Positions 36,809 to 56,491 of a stretch of DNA of 64,000 nt are shown one piece after another. Where the stretch lies: NCBI RefSeq assembly GCF_003426815.1, contig NZ_QKYK01000003.1:62001-126000 (forward strand), written 5' to 3'. The first letter of the stretch is position 1. The number at the start of each line of letters is the position of its first letter. The notes below the pieces were generated by a model that saw only the letters and a program-made list of their open reading frames with translations, ran no database searches and had not been told where the DNA came from. This stretch comes from Desertimonas flava. GTDB lineage: Bacteria > Actinomycetota > Acidimicrobiia > Acidimicrobiales > Ilumatobacteraceae. Made by a program: the position numbers and the translations under genes.

Positions 36809-36970
36809 ATGAACGGACCGATCTTCCACTACTCCGACGACTACATCTCGCTCATGGCCAGAGAGCGCCAGGCTCGGATGCTGCAGGACGCCGTGCAGCG
36901 CCGGGCCATCCGCGCGGCTCGCAGCGACGCCACCCGGACACGGTCACGGTTCCTGCGTTGGCACCGTTGA
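36809..36970 (+). CDS. Small basic protein (53 aa) divergent from WYL regulator
   Basis: A 53-residue Arg-rich ORF whose N-terminus is MNGPIFHYSDDYISLMARER. The ATG lies 7 nt after a TACCGT -10 box with no Shine-Dalgarno sequence, consistent with near-leaderless translation. No family was recognised. The shared intergenic operator suggests it is the WYL regulator's target. Confidence 0.55.
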   Translation: MNGPIFHYSDDYISLMARERQARMLQDAVQRRAIRAARSDATRTRSRFLRWHR

Positions 36971-36977
36971 TGGTAGT

Positions 36978-37004
36978 CCGGCCGCCACCTCCCGGTGGCC
37001 GGGC
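36978..37004. terminator. GC-rich hairpin between convergent genes
   Basis: Imperfect stem CCGGCCGCCACC / GGTGGCCGG with loop TCCC lies between the small ORF and the flavin reductase gene. Confidence 0.55.
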
Positions 37005-37006
37005 GC

Positions 37007-37519
37007 TCAGTGGCGCTTGACGCCGCCGTACTTCATGCGCGTGTCGCTCATCGCCGCCGCCCTCGCGTCGTCGTCGCCAATCCTGAGGGCGACAACCTCC
37101 CCGGCGTAGAGGGTGTGCGTGCCGAAGTCGATCGCCTGGCGCACGACGCAGTCGGCCCAGGCGATCGCCTCGGTAAACACGGGGGCGCCCGACGGGGCGG
37201 CCTCGACCTCGCGCCCGTTGAGCGTGATCGTGTCCCCGTCCCGCTCCAGGACCGCCGGCTTGGAGAACTTCACGAACGGCCGCGTGTCGTCCGCCGACCA
37301 GAGGTTCACGGTGAACGAGCCGCCGCCACTGATCAGCTCGTGGGTGATCGACGTGTTGTCCACGCCGACCCCGATCAGCACCGGTTCCATCGACAGCTGC
37401 ATGATCCAGCTGGTGGTCATTGCGTTCCAGCGCTCGCCGTCGCGCGATCCGACCAGGGCGAGGGCGTTGGGGATCTTCCACGTGAACTTGTTGACGAGCA
37501 CGTCGTCGAGTTCGGCCAT
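37007..37519 (-). CDS. Flavin reductase-like domain protein
   Basis: This 170-residue split-barrel FMN-binding protein may supply reduced flavin to a monooxygenase or act as a flavin-dependent enzyme itself. The pattern WNAMTTSWIMQLSMEPVLIG and ISGGGSFTVNLWSADD fits the family. The ATG follows TAGAGT by exactly 6 nt (leaderless). It lies downstream of, and co-directional with, the P450 gene but has its own promoter. Confidence 0.85.
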   Translation of the reverse strand: MAELDDVLVNKFTWKIPNALALVGSRDGERWNAMTTSWIMQLSMEPVLIGVGVDNTSITHELISGGGSFTVNLWSADDTRPFVKFSKPAVLERDGDTITLNGREVEAAPSGAPVFTEAIAWADCVVRQAIDFGTHTLYAGEVVALRIGDDDARAAAMSDTRMKYGGVKRH

Positions 37520-37525
37520 CGCGTG

Positions 37526-37531
37526 ACTCTA
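37526..37531 (-). promoter_or_regulatory. -10 box TAGAGT, leaderless start of flavin reductase
   Basis: TAGAGT, CACGCG, then ATG at 37519 on the minus strand. Confidence 0.6.
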
Positions 37532-37600
37532 GAGAAGTGTCGGCACGGGCGGGTCGATGCCGCGTGCGTACCGCTGGCCGCCAGGGTCTCGGTTTGCCGG

Positions 37601-38845
37601 TCAGTGTCCCGGTTCGAAGGCGATCGGTAGGTGCTGCGGTCCGAAGATGCCGGCCTGGCTCGGCTTCCACGACACCTCGCCGTCGATGCGTACACCCGGC
37701 AGCCGAGCGGCGAGCATCGGCAGGGCCTCCTGCAGCTCGGCCTTGGCCAGCGCCGCGCCGAGGCAGTAGTGGATCCCGGCGCCGAAGGTGAGATGGGTCT
37801 GCGCGGCGGGCGGCCTGGTGATGTCGAACGTGTTGGGGTCGTCGCCGAAGACGCCGGGGTCACGGTTGGCGGTCGAGACCGACAGGGCGAGGAACGTCCC
37901 CTTCGGGAACAACACGTCGCGGTACACGATGTCCTCACTGGCGATGCGTCCCGTGCCCCGCACGGCGCCGAAGTACCGCATCACCTCGTCGACGGCCTGC
38001 GGCGCCAACTCGGGCTGCTCGGCAAGCAGGCGCCACTGATCCGGGTGGGCGGCGAACAGGGCGACGGCGCAGCCGAGCTGGTTGCGCGTGGTGTCGGTGC
38101 CGCCGAGGATGACCGCCTGGACGAGGCGCAGCAGTTCCTCGGTGGTCAGCCGGTCGCCCTCCTCCTCGGCGCCGATCAAGTCGGTGAGCAGGTCGTCGGC
38201 GGGCTGGTCTCGCCGGATGTCGATGAGCCGTCGCGTGTACCGATCGAGCTCGTCGGACGCCTTGTTGATCGCCGGCAGATCCTCGTGGAGGTTGAAGTTG
38301 AAGATCTTCATGATGTCGTCGGCCCAGCGGCTGAACAGCTGCCAGTCCTCCTTGGGCGCACCGAGCAGCTCGCAGATGATCGGGATCGGATAGGGGTCGC
38401 AGATGTCGACCGCGAAGTCGCAGCGCCCATCGGCGGCGACCTGGTCGATCAGCCCACCGACCACCTCGCGCATGAAGGGCCGCAGGCGGTCGGCGGCACG
38501 CGGTGTGAAGGCCCGCCCGACGAGCCGGCGCAGACGGGTGTGCTCGTCGCCCTCTGCCGAGAGGATCGACGTGCCCTGCCGGGCCAGTTGGTCGGGGTCG
38601 GTGACGCCCGACAGCTGCAGTAGCTGACCGGCCGCGCTGTGCCAGCGCTTGTCCCGGAGTTGTGCGACGACGTCGTCGTAGCGCGTGACCATGTAGCCGA
38701 GGTCGGTCCGGGCCAGCCAGTGTTCTTCCGACGCGGCGAGGCGGTTGGCGAGCAGCGTGTCGGCGCCGTCGTTGACGTCGATCTCGAACTTGGGCAGGTC
38801 GAGGTCGTGCACCGACGTCGGTCCGCTGGTCGTGGTTGCGCTCAT
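37601..38845 (-). CDS. Cytochrome P450
   Basis: This 414-residue soluble bacterial P450 has the I-helix oxygen motif GGTDTT, the K-helix ExxR (EVMR) and the haem loop FGAGIHYCLG with ligand Cys361. It needs a ferredoxin and reductase encoded elsewhere. It is divergent from a TetR gene. Its ATG overlaps the stop of an 18-codon leader ORF (ATGA), so its translation is probably coupled to that ORF. Substrate unknown; steroid, fatty acid or xenobiotic are all possible. Confidence 0.95.
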   Translation of the reverse strand: MSATTTSGPTSVHDLDLPKFEIDVNDGADTLLANRLAASEEHWLARTDLGYMVTRYDDVVAQLRDKRWHSAAGQLLQLSGVTDPDQLARQGTSILSAEGDEHTRLRRLVGRAFTPRAADRLRPFMREVVGGLIDQVAADGRCDFAVDICDPYPIPIICELLGAPKEDWQLFSRWADDIMKIFNFNLHEDLPAINKASDELDRYTRRLIDIRRDQPADDLLTDLIGAEEEGDRLTTEELLRLVQAVILGGTDTTRNQLGCAVALFAAHPDQWRLLAEQPELAPQAVDEVMRYFGAVRGTGRIASEDIVYRDVLFPKGTFLALSVSTANRDPGVFGDDPNTFDITRPPAAQTHLTFGAGIHYCLGAALAKAELQEALPMLAARLPGVRIDGEVSWKPSQAGIFGPQHLPIAFEPGH

Positions 38846-38895
38846 CGCCCGGACATCCCCCTTGCGTTCCGTGCGACCGCCGGTGCGGTCATCAC
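38842..38895 (-). CDS. 17-residue leader ORF coupled to the P450 gene
   Basis: GTG at 38895 lies 6 nt after the minus-strand TATAGT box. It encodes 17 residues (begins VMTAPAVARN) and its TGA overlaps the P450 ATG by 4 nt. It would let a leaderless mRNA hand ribosomes to the P450 start, which lacks a good Shine-Dalgarno sequence. Too short to judge by homology. Confidence 0.5.
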   Translation of the reverse strand: MMTAPAVARNARGMSGR

Positions 38896-38924
38896 GTGAT
38901 GACTATAGTCATCACGTGATGACC
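38887..38924. promoter_or_regulatory. 38-bp perfect palindrome: shared TetR operator and bidirectional promoter
   Basis: Two copies of the 16-bp palindrome GTCATCACGTGATGAC flank a central TATA, with matching GG/CC ends, making the whole 38 bp self-complementary. TATAGT occurs on both strands at the centre, each 6 nt before a GTG: TetR on plus at 38916, leader ORF on minus at 38895. A TetR dimer on each half would cover both promoters. Confidence 0.85.
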
Positions 38925-39617
38925 AACGCGAGCCCGGCCGACAGCAGCGAGGCCCTCGGCTCCGTGCTGGCGCAGCTGGGCGGCGGGCGGGCCGCGCCGA
39001 GCGCCCGCTCCACCGCCGACCGGCTGCTCGACGCCGGCCTCACGTTGTTCGCCGAGCAGGGCTTCCGCGCCACCACCGTGGGCCAGATCGAGCAGCTCGC
39101 CGGCTTCGCCCCCCGCGGCGGCACGCTCTACAAGCACTTCGAGTCGAAACGAGCCCTGCTCGAGGCCGCCCTCCAGCGCCACGTCGAGTCGATCGCCCGC
39201 TTCGACGACGTCCTGCGCCTCCTGCCGCTCACCGACCTGCGCTCCGAATTGCTGCTCTTGGCCCGCTGGATGCTCGCCGAGCTCGACCGGGAGAAGGCGA
39301 TCTCGCTCGTGATCGAGAAGAACGGCGCCGACGTGCCCGACCTCGTCGAGGCGATGCGTGTCGGGGTGATGGAGCGCGGGTACGAGTTCGCCATCCGCTA
39401 CCTCGAGCAGCGCTTCCCCGACCTCCCCGGGTACGCCGACTCCGACCGTGACCGCGAGGCCACCGCCGTGCTGATGATCGGCTCCCTCGTCAACGTGCGC
39501 CGGGCCGCCTGGACGTACGGCAAGCCGCCCCTCGGCATCGACGACGACCGGGCGATCAACGCCTGGGTGAACGTCGTGACCACCCTGCTCGAGCACAGCG
39601 GGGCCGCCGCGACCTGA
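38916..39617 (+). CDS. TetR-family transcriptional regulator
   Basis: This 233-residue repressor has an N-terminal TetR HTH (GLTLFAEQGFRATTVGQIEQ, then GGTLYKHFESKRALLEAAL) and a variable helical ligand domain. The GTG at 38916 is preferred over ATG 38919 because it sits exactly 6 nt after TATAGT. Its first codons lie inside the operator palindrome. It probably represses itself and the divergent P450. Confidence 0.92.
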   Translation: MMTNASPADSSEALGSVLAQLGGGRAAPSARSTADRLLDAGLTLFAEQGFRATTVGQIEQLAGFAPRGGTLYKHFESKRALLEAALQRHVESIARFDDVLRLLPLTDLRSELLLLARWMLAELDREKAISLVIEKNGADVPDLVEAMRVGVMERGYEFAIRYLEQRFPDLPGYADSDRDREATAVLMIGSLVNVRRAAWTYGKPPLGIDDDRAINAWVNVVTTLLEHSGAAAT

Positions 39618-39649
39618 TCATCTGGGCGCGGATCGTGCCATTTCGCCTT

Positions 39650-39692
39650 CTGGGCGCGATCCGTGTCGCTCAGCGTCACGAATCGCGCCCAG
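39650..39692 (+). terminator. Long hairpin between TetR and deacetylase genes
   Basis: A 16-nt arm starting CTGGGCGCGAT pairs with its complement (one mismatch) across an 11-nt loop. A third copy of the arm sequence lies at 39621, so the element may be a decayed repeat. Confidence 0.65.
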
Positions 39693-39743
39693 ATCATCGA
39701 TCGTCGAGCGAACGGGCGGATGATCCGATTGCCTGGGACGGCG

Positions 39744-40590: not shown

Positions 40591-43500
40591 CTACGAGCAG
40601 CCGCTGGTGCTGCCGCAGCTGGGGCAGGCGTGGCAGGAGCCGGCGCGGACCATCGTCACGCCGCACTGCATGCACATCGGCGCGTCGCTCGCCGCCCGGT
40701 CGCGGATGACGCCGGCCGCCGGCGTGTTGTCCTGCGGCGTCGGCGTGGTGATGCCGAGCTCCATCTGGTCGGCCAGCTCGCCGGCCGGCGGCAGCGACTT
40801 CGGGTCGGGCATCATCTCGGTGCCCGTCGACGTCTCGACCAGGGTTTCCTCCATGCCGGGCAGCGTCGGCTGCAGCCGCTCGCTGACCGAGAAGATGCCC
40901 AGCTCGGCCCGCTCGTCGTAGGTCATGTACTCGACGGCGAGGCGGCGGAAGAGGTAGTCCATCACCGAGCTGGCGAAGCGGATCTCGGGGTCGTCGGTCA
41001 TGCCGGCCGGCTCGAAGCGCATGTTGACGAACGCCTCGACGAACGCCCGCAACGGCACGCCGTACTGGAGGCCGTAGGAGATCGACTTGGCGAAGGCGTC
41101 CATGATGCCCGACATCGTCGAGCCCTGCTTCGACACCGTGAGGAAGACCTCGCCGGGACGGCCGTCGTCGTACTCGCCGATGGTGACGAAGCCTTTGCAG
41201 TCGGCGACGCGGAACTCGAACGTTCGCCCGCGCCGGCTCTTGGGCAGCTTCTGGCGCACCGGACGGTGCACGACCCTCTCGACGATGCGCTCGACGATGG
41301 CCTGCGGCGTGTGGGTCTCGAGCGCCAGCTCGTTCACCTCGGCGACCGGCACGGCACCATCGGACTTCTTCGTCGTCGACAGCGGCTGGCCGACCTTGCA
41401 GTTGTCGCGGTACACCGCAACGGCCTTGACGCCCAGCTCCCACGCCAGCATGTGCACGCCGGCGATGTCGTCGACCGATGCGTCCTCGGGAAGGTTGATC
41501 GTGTTGTGATTGAGGATCCCGTTGGCGACGAACGTCTGATTTGACGGAACCGACACGTCGTAAACTTCGGCCACGCCGTCGTCCTCGATCTCGGTGACCG
41601 GCGAGAACCTGATGTTCTCGTCAAGCACCTGATTCACCCAGTGAGGTAGTCGAGCGCCGTAGAGCCGAGCCAACTCGACACTGCGGCGAGTAGGCCACGT
41701 CGTCCGGTGATCTCGCAAGTGGCCGAAGTGCGAACGGGTCCGGCCCCGAACGCCCGGACCGCGTCGTGAGGAAGGAATCAGCGCGAGGAGCTCATGAGGC
41801 GGTATCGGAACGATGTCTGCTGCGTTGATTCCGATCGGCAGGTCGAGCAGGAGTTGGGCTCGAGCCGCCTTCTCCGGCTCCATGAATGGGACGAGCTCGC
41901 AGAGCCGGCGAGCTGACCCGCCTGTTACATAGACCTCTCCGTACGACTTGTCGTACGTCTTGTTGTACTTGCTGATGCGACTGCTGACGATGCCGAGGTT
42001 GGTGAGCACCGCTTGGAGATCGTCGAGCAGGCCCGGCGAATCGAGGCAGATGGCCCACCTCGGCTGCCCGCGAACCGTCGCGTACGCATCCAGCGACAAC
42101 CCATCGAGAAATGCGAGCACGTGTTCTCGTCGCGAGGTCAGCACTGCGTCGGGGATCCGCTTCTGGGAGGCTCTGCGACCGCAGCCGAGATGGTCGAGGA
42201 ACTCCACGATGGTCTTGGAGCTCACGATGACATCCGGGCACCGCACACCGTCGTCGACAATCTTCGCGTCGACACCGAACGCCTCGCTCCACGCCGAGAC
42301 GATCGCTTCCCTCACGGCCGCGACTGAGTTGGTGATCCGAACGGTCCAGGTGCTCTGGACGGTGCAGCCCTCCGACGCGTAGGCACCGAGCAGGAATGCC
42401 AACTGCTCGGTCATCTCGGTTGGAATCGCCACACGATGTTGAGATCCGTGCATGGGTGAGGGATCGAAATCGCTGAACGCTGCCGGAATGGTCGACCAAA
42501 GCTCGGCCCCGTAGCGCACTGCGACGAGGTCTCCGGGCGCTAGTTCGTCGAGCCGGCGCCAGACGAAGCCCGTCCCGTCTCCGACGAGGACTCGATGGTT
42601 CGGAGTTCCGGTGATCTGGTGACCATTTCGGAGCACGAGGCGGCGAACAGGGCGGCGACCGCCGTAGTAGAAGGCGTTCGTCTTGCGGGGACCGTCGAGC
42701 GAGTCCACCGCGATGATCTCGTCACGGGTGGTGTCAGGCCCCTCACCCTGATGCAGCGACGCGATCCGAATCAACCCCTCGGACGTAGGCAGCAACGAGT
42801 CCCCTGTGACGCACTTCGAGAGTGCACCCGAGAAGAACGGCTGGATGGCGCCCATCATGCGGACGTGGCCCTCGTAGTGGATCACGTTGTCGCCCATCGA
42901 GCAGGCGAAGACCGGCAGGTGCTCGGACCGCAGGTGCGGGGCGCCGACGATCGACTTCTCACGGTCGATGTAGTCGACGATGTCGTCGACCTGCGAGTCG
43001 GTGTAGCCGAGCGTGCGCAGCGCCCGCGGGATCGTCTGGTTGACGATCGACATCGTGCCGCCGCCGACGAGCTTCTTCGTCTTCACCAGCGAGAGGTCGG
43101 GCTCGATGCCCGTGGTGTCGCAGTCGAGCATGAAGCTGATCGTGCCGGTGGGTGCGGCGACGGTGGCCTGGCTGTTGCGGACGCCGTAGTCCTCGGCGAT
43201 GGTGACGGCATCGTCCCATGCGGCGAGGCTGGCCCGGGCGACGTAGCCGGGAACGACCTCGGCCCCTTCGACGTTGCGGCTGGCGTCGCGGTGCATGCGC
43301 AGCACGTCGAGCATCGGTTCGGCGTTGTCGTGATAGCCCGAGAAGGGCCCCATGCGCGCGGCGGTCCGCGCCGAGGTGGCGTAGGCGTGACCGGTCATCA
43401 GCGACGTGAGCACGCCTGCCCACGCCCGTCCCTCCACCGAGTCGTACGGCAATCCGAGCGCCATCAGCAGGGCGCCGAGGTTGGCATGGCCGAGACCGAG

Positions 43501-44787
43501 CTGGCGGAATGCCCGTGTGTTGTCGGCGATCGATTCGGTCGGATAATCGGAACGGCCGACGAGGATCTCCTGCGCAGTGAACACAACTTCGACCGTGTGC
43601 TTGAAGGCATCGACGTCAAATCGATCGTCATCGAGATACTTCAAAAGATTGATAGAAGCCAGATTGCACGCGCTGTTATTTACACTAAGATACTCTGAAC
43701 AAGGGTTACTTGCCTCGATCGGCGCGGTGTTGGACAGCGTGTGCCAGCGGTTGATCGTCGTGTCGAACTGCAGGCCGGGGTCGGCGCACTCCCACGCCGC
43801 GGCGGCGATGTCGTGCCAGAGGTCGCGGGCCCGAATGGTCTCGATCACCTCGCCGGTCGTGACGGCGCGCAGCGGCCACTCGGCGTCGTCGCGCACCGCC
43901 TGCATGAACTCGTCGGTGACCCGGACGGAGTTGTTGGCGTTCTGGTACTGCACCGAGAACGAGTCCTTGCCGTCGAGATCCATGTCGAAGCCGGCGTCGC
44001 GCAGGGCGCGGATCTTGCGCTCTTCGATGGCCTTGCACCAGACGAACTCGGAGATGTCCGGATGATCCGCGTTGAGGATGACCATCTTCGCCGCCCGGCG
44101 GGTGGTACCGCCGGACTTGATGGTGCCGGCCGATGCGTCGGCGCCGCGCATGAAGCTGACGGGACCGGAGGCCGTGCCACCGCCACGGAGCCGCTCCTTG
44201 CTCGAGCGGAGGTGCGACAGGTTGGTGCCGGCACCGGAGCCACCCTTGAAGATGAGCCCCTCCTCGCGGTACCAGTTGAGGATCGACTCCATCGTGTCGT
44301 CGACCGACAGGATGAAGCAGGCGCTCGACTGCGCCTTCGCCCCGGGCACCCCGATGTTGAACCACACCGGGCTGTTGAACGCGGCCCGCTGCGTGACGAG
44401 GATGTACTTCAACTCGTCGACGAACGTGGCGGCCTCGCGGTCGTCGGCGAAGTATCCGCCCTCGACGCCCCATCGAGCGATCGTGTCGGCGACGCGGTCG
44501 ACCACCTGACGGAGCGATGACTCGCGCTCGGGCGTACCGAGCGCCCCGCGGAAGTACTTCTGGGCCACGACGTTGGTTGCGTTCTGCGACCAGTCGGCGG
44601 GAAACTCGACGTCGGTCTGCTCGAAGGCGATCGACCCGTCGGCGAAGTTGGTGATGCGGGCATCCCGGCGCTCCCAGACGACTTCGTCGTACGGGTGCAC
44701 ACCCGGCGAGGTGAACAGGCGCCGCAGCCCGATGCGGGGAGCGTCGCCGTCGGGGCCGGCGTTCACGGGATCAGGTGCCAGCGACAT
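40591..44787 (-). CDS. nrdJ: Adenosylcobalamin-dependent ribonucleotide reductase (class II), with intein
   Basis: NrdJ reduces ribonucleotides to deoxyribonucleotides using coenzyme B12. The 1398-residue precursor contains a 437-residue intein (659-1095), leaving 961 residues, normal for actinobacterial NrdJ. Extein landmarks are FNSPVWFNIG, KGGSGAGTNLSHLRSSKE, the active-site region NPCSEYLSVNNSACNLASIN, ATVAAPTGTISFM and a C-terminal Cys-rich tail (CMQCG, CHACPSCGSTSGCS). AGGAG lies 8 nt before the ATG. Its likely repressor nrdR is encoded ~3 kb away in the same window. A short AT-rich patch lies over the active-site codons. Confidence 0.96.
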   Translation of the reverse strand: MSLAPDPVNAGPDGDAPRIGLRRLFTSPGVHPYDEVVWERRDARITNFADGSIAFEQTDVEFPADWSQNATNVVAQKYFRGALGTPERESSLRQVVDRVADTIARWGVEGGYFADDREAATFVDELKYILVTQRAAFNSPVWFNIGVPGAKAQSSACFILSVDDTMESILNWYREEGLIFKGGSGAGTNLSHLRSSKERLRGGGTASGPVSFMRGADASAGTIKSGGTTRRAAKMVILNADHPDISEFVWCKAIEERKIRALRDAGFDMDLDGKDSFSVQYQNANNSVRVTDEFMQAVRDDAEWPLRAVTTGEVIETIRARDLWHDIAAAAWECADPGLQFDTTINRWHTLSNTAPIEASNPCSEYLSVNNSACNLASINLLKYLDDDRFDVDAFKHTVEVVFTAQEILVGRSDYPTESIADNTRAFRQLGLGHANLGALLMALGLPYDSVEGRAWAGVLTSLMTGHAYATSARTAARMGPFSGYHDNAEPMLDVLRMHRDASRNVEGAEVVPGYVARASLAAWDDAVTIAEDYGVRNSQATVAAPTGTISFMLDCDTTGIEPDLSLVKTKKLVGGGTMSIVNQTIPRALRTLGYTDSQVDDIVDYIDREKSIVGAPHLRSEHLPVFACSMGDNVIHYEGHVRMMGAIQPFFSGALSKCVTGDSLLPTSEGLIRIASLHQGEGPDTTRDEIIAVDSLDGPRKTNAFYYGGRRPVRRLVLRNGHQITGTPNHRVLVGDGTGFVWRRLDELAPGDLVAVRYGAELWSTIPAAFSDFDPSPMHGSQHRVAIPTEMTEQLAFLLGAYASEGCTVQSTWTVRITNSVAAVREAIVSAWSEAFGVDAKIVDDGVRCPDVIVSSKTIVEFLDHLGCGRRASQKRIPDAVLTSRREHVLAFLDGLSLDAYATVRGQPRWAICLDSPGLLDDLQAVLTNLGIVSSRISKYNKTYDKSYGEVYVTGGSARRLCELVPFMEPEKAARAQLLLDLPIGINAADIVPIPPHELLALIPSSRRGPGVRGRTRSHFGHLRDHRTTWPTRRSVELARLYGARLPHWVNQVLDENIRFSPVTEIEDDGVAEVYDVSVPSNQTFVANGILNHNTINLPEDASVDDIAGVHMLAWELGVKAVAVYRDNCKVGQPLSTTKKSDGAVPVAEVNELALETHTPQAIVERIVERVVHRPVRQKLPKSRRGRTFEFRVADCKGFVTIGEYDDGRPGEVFLTVSKQGSTMSGIMDAFAKSISYGLQYGVPLRAFVEAFVNMRFEPAGMTDDPEIRFASSVMDYLFRRLAVEYMTYDERAELGIFSVSERLQPTLPGMEETLVETSTGTEMMPDPKSLPPAGELADQMELGITTPTPQDNTPAAGVIRDRAASDAPMCMQCGVTMVRAGSCHACPSCGSTSGCS
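41503..42813 (-). other. Intein with LAGLIDADG endonuclease in NrdJ
   Basis: The intein spans residues 659-1095 of the precursor. It starts with Cys1 (CVTGDSLLPTSEG), has the block B TxxH-type GTPNHRVLV, and ends FVANGILNHN with the terminal His-Asn; the +1 extein residue is Thr. The flanking extein joins as GALSK/TINLP, a highly conserved site. LLGAYASEG and FLDGLSLDAYATV resemble the two LAGLIDADG helices. All splicing residues appear present, so it should be active. Confidence 0.93.
43581..43717 (-). other. AT-rich recoded patch in the nrdJ extein
   Basis: Within GC-rich nrdJ, this stretch over the active-site segment (SNPCSEYL to TVEVVF) uses AT-ending codons. I count 36 G/C in the 90 bases 43621-43710 (40%). 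The protein remains conserved and in frame, so this is a DNA-level anomaly, not a broken gene. Confidence 0.7.
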
Positions 44788-55197: not shown

Positions 55198-55968
55198 TCA
55201 GAGCCGGGACCGCACGGCCCAGAGGTCGGGGAACAGCGGCGAGAACAGCGTCGAGCGCAGATACGCCGCGCCGGAGCTGCCGCCCGTGCCGGCCTTGTCG
55301 CCGATGGTGCGCTCCACCATCTTCACGTGCCGGTAGCGCCACTCCTGCACCCCTTCGTCGAGGTCGACGAGGCGTTCGCACACCGCCGCGGCCTCGCCGT
55401 CGTCGCGGTAGACCTCGAGCAGGCATTCCTGCAGCTGCGGATCGGGGGCGAGCGGGGCGCGGACGTCGCGCAGCATGGCGTGATCCGGGACGTCGTAGCC
55501 GCACATCTGCAGGTACGTGACGAACGAGTCGTAGAGGTTGCGACGCTGCTGCGCGGCGGCGATGCGCTCCCCGGCGAGCCCGGGCTGGTGGTGCTCGGTG
55601 CGCGAGCCGAGCACTGCCTCGAACTCGCGGAACTGCGCCGACTGGAAGCCGCTCGAGGCGTCGAGGCGGCCGCGGAAGCCGGCGAACTGGCGCGGCGTCA
55701 TCGTCTCGAGGACATCGACTTGCGCAACGGCCACCTTGAGGATCGTGAGCACCCGTTTGAGGGTGTGCAGGGCCTGCGCCGACCGGCCGGCTTCGAGGAC
55801 CGTCTGGGCCCGCTCGAGCTCGTGGAGCATCTGCTTGAACCACAGCTCGTACACCTGGTGGATGACGATGAACAGCAGCTCGTCGTGTTCGTCGGAGCGT
55901 GGTCGCTGGGCCGAGAGGACCTCGTCGAGGGCGAGATACGACGAGTAGGTGAGCGCGGCGTCCGACAT
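55198..55968 (-). CDS. kynA: Tryptophan 2,3-dioxygenase
   Basis: Haem enzyme that opens the indole ring of L-tryptophan to N-formylkynurenine. The 256-residue all-helical protein shows YSSYLALDEVLSAQ, FIVIHQVYELWFKQMLHEL, GFQSAQFREFE and the haem-ligand region YRHVKMVERTIGDKAGTGG. ATG 55968 is 6 nt after TACCAT (leaderless); an upstream in-frame start at 56073 is rejected. No other kynurenine-pathway gene is adjacent. Confidence 0.96.
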   Translation of the reverse strand: MSDAALTYSSYLALDEVLSAQRPRSDEHDELLFIVIHQVYELWFKQMLHELERAQTVLEAGRSAQALHTLKRVLTILKVAVAQVDVLETMTPRQFAGFRGRLDASSGFQSAQFREFEAVLGSRTEHHQPGLAGERIAAAQQRRNLYDSFVTYLQMCGYDVPDHAMLRDVRAPLAPDPQLQECLLEVYRDDGEAAAVCERLVDLDEGVQEWRYRHVKMVERTIGDKAGTGGSSGAAYLRSTLFSPLFPDLWAVRSRL

Positions 55969-55974
55969 GCGGTG

Positions 55975-55980
55975 ATGGTA
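55975..55980 (-). promoter_or_regulatory. -10 box TACCAT, leaderless start of tryptophan dioxygenase
   Basis: TACCAT, CACCGC, then ATG at 55968 on the minus strand. Confidence 0.6.
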
Positions 55981-56035
55981 GGCACCGCGTGACGAGCGCC
56001 ATGCCCCGGCATTTCCCGCGCTGCGAGACACTCGG

Positions 56036-56041
56036 TAGCGT
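56036..56041 (+). promoter_or_regulatory. -10 box TAGCGT, leaderless start
   Basis: TAGCGT, CGGGGC, then GTG at 56048. Confidence 0.6.
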
Positions 56042-56047
56042 CGGGGC

Positions 56048-56491
56048 GTGCTCGCAATCTGGGACTTCTCCACCGGCTATCAGCTGCTCGGTTTCCTCCA
56101 CATCCTCGCCGCCATCGTCGCGTTCGGCCCGATTCTCGTCTACCCGTCGCTGCGTGGCACCGAGCGGATCGCCAAGCTCCACCTGCGGATGACGCTCCCG
56201 GCGCTCACGCTGGTCTGGGTGCTCGGCATGGGCATGGTGGGCATGGGCAAGCTGCCCGGTTCCGGCGACGTGAAGGCCTGGGAGATGTCGGACACCTGGA
56301 TCGTCCTCGCCCTCTTGTGCTGGGTGATCGCCATGGCGGCCAGCTGGTTCCTCATCCGCCCGGCGCTCACCGACCAGAGCGAGGCAGCCACGAAGAAGTT
56401 CGGCGCCGGCATCGGCATCACCCACGTGATCCTCGTCGTGACGCTCTTCTTGATGATCTTCAAGCCCGGCGCCAGCTTCGGCGGTCTCTGA
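56048..56491 (+). CDS. DUF2269-like integral membrane protein
   Basis: This 147-residue protein has four hydrophobic helices (~12-32, ~50-70, ~84-104, ~124-142) and an N-terminal LHILAAIVAFGPILVYPSL that resembles DUF2269 proteins. Function unknown. Divergent from the dioxygenase, with both starts leaderless. A long perfect hairpin follows. Confidence 0.7.
   Translation: MLAIWDFSTGYQLLGFLHILAAIVAFGPILVYPSLRGTERIAKLHLRMTLPALTLVWVLGMGMVGMGKLPGSGDVKAWEMSDTWIVLALLCWVIAMAASWFLIRPALTDQSEAATKKFGAGIGITHVILVVTLFLMIFKPGASFGGL

Follow-up and report, generated by a model that had tools for sequence, protein, structure and literature searches.

A Perfect 38-bp Palindrome between Divergent tetR and Cytochrome P450 Genes as a Candidate Operator and Bidirectional Promoter

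INTRODUCTION

Bidirectional promoters in which both directions share a symmetric -10 element are described as common, and in five Escherichia coli cases the divergent starts lie 10-23 bp apart, the commonest distances in that organism being given as 18, 10 and 23 (PMC12825309). According to the same source, the promoter of acrA and acrR is of this bidirectional kind and is shut in both directions by the TetR-family autorepressor AcrR (PMC12825309). A TANNNT motif about 12 bp upstream of the start codon is reported as the most probable mark of a leaderless bacterial gene, with Actinobacteria among the groups richest in such genes (PMC3160421), and in mycobacteria an RTG codon at +1 is reported to suffice for translation (PMC4633059).

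Here we describe a locus of Desertimonas flava, found in a 64-kb stretch of DNA that was analysed as a whole and is called the window below, in which a tetR gene and a cytochrome P450 gene diverge from a perfect palindrome that would hold the operator, the promoter and the first codons together. The components are known from other bacteria; their compact combination is unusual, and in a limited open-licence literature, judged by titles and abstracts, we recognized no description of a mirror-symmetric leaderless pair.

RESULTS

The palindrome and its symmetry

The features of the locus, in window coordinates, are as follows.

37601-38845, minus strand: cytochrome P450 gene, 414 aa (PF00067; best PDB matches are P450s)
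38842-38895, minus strand: predicted 17-codon leader ORF VMTAPAVARNARGMSGR, from the mirror GTG; an analogous ORF occurs at locus L023
38857-38863, minus strand: AAGGGGG, Shine-Dalgarno-like as read from the sequence, 11 nt before the P450 ATG
38871-38895, minus strand: predicted 5'-terminal RNA hairpin of the P450 transcript, pairing the GUG
38887-38924, no strand: 38-bp perfect palindrome, putative operator with overlapping bidirectional -10
38888-38903: 16-bp self-palindrome GTCATCACGTGATGAC, proposed TetR dimer site on the P450 side; similar sites lie upstream of TetR relatives
38902-38907, minus strand: TATAGT, proposed -10 for the P450 gene, sole TANNNT on this strand in 38846-39400
38904-38909, plus strand: TATAGT, proposed -10 for tetR, sole TANNNT on this strand in 38600-39000
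38908-38923: second copy of GTCATCACGTGATGAC, proposed TetR dimer site on the tetR side
38916-39617, plus strand: tetR, with proposed leaderless GTG at 38916, in-frame ATG 38919 next, and a TetR_N domain

The sequence between the two genes, GGTCATCACGTGATGACTATAGTCATCACGTGATGACC, is palindromic over all 38 bp, gapless and with 19-nt arms; the longest other perfect palindrome in the window, which is 70% GC, measures 18 bp. It consists of two identical 16-mers, each a palindrome in itself, set 20 bp apart from start to start with TATA between them. TATAGT reads at 38904-38909 on the plus strand and at 38907-38902 on the minus strand, TATA being common to both, and a GTG lies 6 nt past each of them, at 38916-38918 (plus) and 38895-38893 (minus). 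The initial annotation had described both the double palindrome around TATA and the mirrored TATAGT and GTG, and the sequence and coordinates bear it out. The dyad of the tetR-side 16-mer falls between 38915 and 38916, the predicted +1 and start codon position.

The mirror symmetry is automatic because each 16-mer is a palindrome, the two copies are identical and the TATA spacer is itself palindromic. Duplication of a self-palindrome therefore yields mirrored TATAGT and GTG elements, and the two GTGs do not amount to two independent coincidences.

In the 6.22-Mb genome the exact 16-mer occurs in these two copies only, and paired sites with up to 3 mismatches were found in 1/395 genomes of the class, namely this one. 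A further 19 matches in the genome, all with 3 mismatches, compare with 4 for a backwards control pattern; because this count is near the estimated chance level, we claim no regulon. A search for the combined -10/operator pattern elsewhere returned only the operator, two offset matches on it and one weak site with 3 mismatches. Beyond tetR, positions 40591-44787 (minus strand) encode a class II ribonucleotide reductase (PF08471, PF02867), interrupted in frame by an intein with splicing and LAGLIDADG domains.

The putative shared -10 and the leaderless spacing

The -10 hexamers of the two strands overlap symmetrically, in the manner of a shared symmetric -10, and the divergent starts predicted from them, 38895 and 38916, are 21 bp apart. 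A scan of 36900-39700 found no paired -35/-10 consensus sites, so that any promoter there has a weak -35. The tetR TATAGT begins 12 nt before the GTG, at the distance given for leaderless genes.

The distance from TANNNT to the start codon was counted in three sets, in which the TetR and P450 loci are related to one another and hence non-independent. The 28 TetR relatives of the same order that were counted (L006-L032 and L035, leaving out L033, L034 and L067-L074) include 9 in which the gap between TANNNT and an in-frame RTG is exactly 6 nt; over the rest of the 0-25 nt range, gaps of 3, 5 and 20 nt occur once each and a gap of 7 nt twice, every other value is empty, and 16/28 have no TANNNT at 5-7 nt. 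Twenty-nine P450 orthologue loci (L038-L066, drawn from the 97 genomes that matched; the start of L060 is truncated) give 10 at 6 nt, 3 at 7 and 1 each at 12, 15 and 20. For window ORFs of at least 100 codons on both strands there are 9 at 6 nt, tetR included, and 1 at 7, with at most 4 at any spacing other than 6 and a mean of about 1. Judged by these counts, 6 nt is the leaderless spacing: each of the three sets peaks sharply there, and it is the spacing of both GTGs in the palindrome. The proposal that a single -10 within the operator serves both genes is likewise supported, since neither start has another TANNNT near it.

A second candidate divergent leaderless pair lies in the window at 55940-56080, where each start is preceded at exactly 6 nt by its own TANNNT, the two -10s being separate; one ORF encodes tryptophan 2,3-dioxygenase (start 55968, minus strand), and its partner (start 56048, plus strand) has no Pfam match.

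Palindromic sites in other genomes

The pattern CAY-N6-ANTATANT-N6-RTG was found at 10 sites in 188 genomes and its backwards control at 7, while a control with N10 spacing gave 13 sites and its own backwards control 16; by count there is thus no genome-wide enrichment over the N10 control in this set. The pattern would miss L023, which has a different -10 and a 7-nt spacing. Arms with at least 5/6 complementary pairs were present in 3/9 non-self sites as against 0/13 (inner six) and 1/13 (outer six) in the controls, and this excess of nearly or fully palindromic sites (L076, L078 and L080) is suggestive and serves as a lead only.

At L076 the site separates a C5 DNA methylase gene from an HTH gene, and a 10-codon ORF runs from the mirror GTG right up to the methylase ATG. 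At L080 (about 1501-1526) the GTG of a Phd/YefM antitoxin gene, which is followed by a PIN-domain gene, lies 6 nt after TATAAT in a near-perfect palindrome, and the other side has a 2-codon ORF only. L078 is the third palindromic site and has no gene assigned. The L076 site itself (about 1501-1526) is a perfect 26-bp palindrome, CACTAAGAGACTATAGTCTCTTAGTG, which resembles the C-boxes of restriction-modification control proteins.

The P450 side

The P450 itself is not encoded from the mirror GTG. As had been claimed, this GTG opens an ORF of 17 residues (38895-38842), the TGA of which (38844-38842) overlaps the P450 ATG (38845) as ATGA, so that the P450 side has the layout of RTGA-coupled small ORFs, with an RTG at leaderless spacing and a TGA overlapping the next RTG. 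In the predicted transcript from 38895 the GUG is paired with CAC in a hairpin of -15.6 kcal/mol over 30 nt (z -3.6), a length that was picked after the 75-nt fold had been seen. This hairpin fades as the stretch is lengthened (z -1.5 at 40 nt and -1.8 at 54 nt), and over 75 nt the 5' ends of both the P450 and the tetR mRNAs fold in an ordinary way (z -0.03 and 0.08 for the two window 5' ends). Out of 300 sequences in which the first 9 nt were held fixed and the 66 nt after them shuffled, 1% paired the GUG equally strongly. The flavin reductase-like gene (PF01613) downstream of the P450 gene has its own TAGAGT 6 nt before its ATG at 37519 and therefore need not share the P450 transcript.

A P450 match lies near the tetR gene at 6/38 loci of TetR relatives, divergently at L018, L023 and L070 and on the same strand at L014, L017 and L019, and these P450s are 25-35% identical to that of the window. 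At L023 (family f17) the divergent TetR and P450, a pair not orthologous to that of the window and both confirmed by Pfam, are 25% and 35% identical to their window counterparts, and between them lies a 28-bp perfect palindrome, TGACATAAGTAAGATCTTACTTATGTCA, unrelated to the window palindrome. Both strands there read TAAGAT-N7-ATG; one ATG is the start of tetR, and from the other runs a 22-codon ORF, MSRSHATPPDVFDLATTTNRAR, with a TGA that overlaps the P450 GTG (as GTGA) and shares a single base with the ATG that follows. On the P450 strand of L023 no second TANNNT occurs in the stretch that begins 200 nt ahead of the palindrome and ends at the P450 start, and the predicted 5' end on this side is unstructured (-1.6 kcal/mol over 30 nt, z +1.55).

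L018 (family f27) is orthologous to L023 (TetR 76% and P450 65% identical); its tetR retains TAAGCT-N7-ATG, and its palindrome is degenerate, with the mirror -10 and the leader ATG missing. At L070 the TetR and P450 genes are separated by a region with two inverted 18-nt sites (19 nt apart), and both starts are preceded by Shine-Dalgarno-like sequences. A search of 13 genomes (G139 and 12 relatives) added two further TetR relatives, L099 and L100, both in G1127; at neither is there a mirror layout, nor a hit for the L023 P450. Since L023 has the full layout and L018 has lost it, these sequence comparisons indicate that the full mirror layout is recurrent, in the window and at L023, yet evolutionarily unstable on the P450 side.

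In its order the window P450 has hits at E up to 1e-60 in 97/298 genomes, its own included; by the matches listed, 41 other genomes of the order reach 52% identity or more with E no higher than 1e-113, and the next P450s of its own genome are at most 37% identical. The initial annotation would have counted absence of the arrangement from close relatives as a refutation, and from the orthologous P450s it is indeed absent: within 200 nt upstream of orthologues 55-63% identical, the window operator was found at 0/28 readable loci, and tblastn for the window TetR at E up to 1e-3 gave 0/29 loci. At L038 an unrelated 45-nt inverted repeat lies upstream of the orthologue. With neither operator nor TetR at the orthologous loci, the P450 gene seems to be the older element, in front of which both were added in the lineage of the window.

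How the P450 is translated is nearly even, on this sequence evidence, between coupling to the leader ORF and initiation led by the Shine-Dalgarno-like sequence. Were coupling obligatory, both mRNAs would be leaderless from a +1 codon, and P450 synthesis would need translation of the 17-codon leader followed by reinitiation at the ATGA; we give this reading not quite an even chance. It accords with the GTG at leaderless spacing on both strands, with L023, where the layout is repeated with open 5' ends and a GTGA overlap, with the short ORF before the methylase gene at L076, and with the reported over-representation of RTGA-coupled leaderless small ORFs in Mycobacterium tuberculosis (PMC4633059). 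The mirror start codon, however, comes automatically with operator symmetry, the window GUG lies in a predicted hairpin while AAGGGGG offers a conventional route, and neither the P450 orthologues nor L018 retain the layout.

It is unlikely that the -10 serves a leaderless tetR only, the mirror -10 being a by-product of symmetry and the P450 gene having a promoter that lacks TANNNT. Symmetry by itself does produce a mirror -10, at 13/29 P450 orthologue loci the start has a TANNNT of its own at 6-7 nt, and L018 has lost the mirror -10 while retaining the gene pair; against this, 38846-39400 holds no alternative TANNNT for the P450 gene, the same is true at L023, and symmetric -10s are described as widely used both ways (PMC12825309).

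TetR relatives and the tetR start

The tetR product has a TetR_N domain (PF00440, E=1.2e-12), and its best PDB match is Mce3R, over residues 31-88. Matches to it, its own included, occur in 2/221 genomes of the family, 25/298 of the order and 10/396 of the phylum, the nearest relatives by E-value being 36-44% identical; a scan of genome contigs gave two weak relatives (25% and 34%), and a plasmid search five records.

In the window the dyad GTCATCAC|GTGATGAC has the start codon directly to its right, and GTG ATG ACC, the codons with which tetR begins, form half of the operator palindrome. L006 (TATAGT-AATCGC-ATG ATT ACA, 16-bp palindrome GTAATCGC|ATGATTAC) and L009 (TAAAGT-AATCAC-GTG ATT ACT, 16-bp palindrome GTAATCAC|GTGATTAC) likewise have an in-frame RTG directly right of the dyad, in 16-bp palindromes of the type GTAATC..GATTAC. 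As read from these sequences, three TetRs of three families have the start codon and the predicted +1 at the operator dyad; L007 and L008, close relatives with similar palindromes, start away from it. A mirror TATAAT at L006 further points toward a divergent gene for an F420H2-dependent quinone reductase, the likely ATG of which is preceded by GGAG and is not leaderless.

The operator type tracks the recognition region in most TetR relatives. The form (P/A)R.G(A/T)(L/F)Y(K/R)HF is shared by the window TetR, L006-L009, L030, L067 and L068, and the form TPGAGGL(F/Y)HHF by L010-L013 and L015, all with CTCAGTG-type sites; L014 and L035 are exceptions, with the recognition-region Arg present and different palindromes. 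L010, L011, L012, L013 and L015 thus form a second TetR subgroup with CTCAGTG/CACTGAG-like sites upstream of tetR, and in this subgroup a -10-like TTTACT or TATACT lies near the tetR start codon, exactly 6 nt away in L012 and L013.

The predicted 5' end of the tetR mRNA is open over 30 nt (-1.2 kcal/mol, z +2.0), and the case for a tetR mRNA that is leaderless from GTG 38916 is well supported at the sequence level. The least probable alternative, a start at ATG 38919 or farther downstream on a leadered transcript with the palindrome as operator only, can draw on the ATG that immediately follows the GTG and on a TetR_N match that begins at residue 36 and so leaves the N terminus unconstrained by domain homology, but the plus strand in 38600-39000 has no other TANNNT, and L006 and L009 start at the codon in the 6-nt position with no ATG after it.

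Of the two symmetric leaderless mRNAs that the initial annotation envisaged, the tetR half is supported by the spacing rule and by the same layout in L006 and L009, as is its suggestion that the first tetR codons double as operator, which holds in both of these relatives; the P450 half is weaker, given the hairpin, the AAGGGGG and the absence of the arrangement from orthologues.

DISCUSSION

We consider it likely that the palindrome is a bidirectional promoter autorepressed by TetR, with tetR leaderless and the P450 translated by way of a coupled leader ORF, a Shine-Dalgarno sequence or both. In the 38 bp, a TetR-family autorepressor and the divergent P450 gene that it controls would have a joint operator and promoter, in which two TetR dimers on the identical 16-bp palindromes, 20 bp apart, would cover the symmetric -10 ACTATAGT. 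RNA polymerase would read this -10 either way, one direction at a time. Rightward transcription would start on the operator dyad, at the GTG that opens a leaderless tetR mRNA as its first codon; leftward transcription from the mirror start would give the P450 mRNA, in which the 50 nt before the ATG hold the 17-codon leader ORF and AAGGGGG, and translation would begin by reinitiation past the leader ORF, at the Shine-Dalgarno sequence, or by both routes. A ligand, probably a substrate of the P450, would free TetR and turn both genes on.

We favor this explanation because of the spacing peak at 6 nt, the unique TATAGT, the layout of L006 and L009, the recurrence at L023 and the acrA/acrR precedent. 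It is weakened because 16 of the 28 TetR relatives lack the spacing, the L007 and L008 starts lie off the dyad, none of the P450 orthologue loci compared has the layout, L018 has lost the mirror side, L070 has Shine-Dalgarno-like starts, L014 and L035 depart from the operator rule and no -35/-10 pair is found; nor is a start separation of 21 bp among the commonest E. coli distances.

A more general regulator design can be put forward tentatively, and we hold it to be possible but on balance doubtful. Operator, bidirectional -10, starts and first codons would be one palindrome, and duplicating or extending a self-palindromic operator on either side of a -10 would by itself yield a mirror promoter and mirror start codon, capturing a neighboring gene through a short coupled leader ORF. 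Such a design would have arisen at least twice for TetR-P450 pairs with unrelated operators (in the window and at L023) and possibly also for regulators of other types (methylase/HTH at L076, Phd antitoxin at L080), with dyad, +1 and start codon coinciding in the window, L006 and L009.

If the model is true, the control of two genes fits into 38 bp that serve as repressor sites, two-way promoter, starts and first codons, and an autorepressor has a simple route to the capture of a neighboring gene; the recurrence at L023 with an unrelated sequence suggests that this route was taken more than once. For synthetic purposes it would also offer a compact and symmetric switch, usable in bacteria able to translate leaderless mRNA. 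No new class of regulation is opened, because the components are already documented.

Among the closest known systems is the acrA/acrR promoter of E. coli, where a TetR-family autorepressor is also divergent from its target, a symmetric -10 is used both ways and the repressor shuts both directions (PMC12825309). The window locus differs in that its operator is a perfect double palindrome centered on the -10, with no recognizable -35, and in that its tetR is apparently leaderless, with the start codon on the operator dyad. The leaderless mRNAs and RTGA small ORFs of mycobacteria share with it a TANNNT about 12 bp upstream and a TGA that overlaps a downstream RTG (PMC4633059, PMC3160421); the window belongs to another lineage, its P450-side GUG lies in a predicted hairpin, and its +1 region doubles as an operator half-site. 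The control regions of restriction-modification C proteins resemble it in having palindromic sites within the regulator's own promoter and a leaderless regulator transcript, and C proteins are described as activating at low and repressing at high level (PMC4824078). In contrast, the window TetR presumably represses only, and its sites are centered on the -10.
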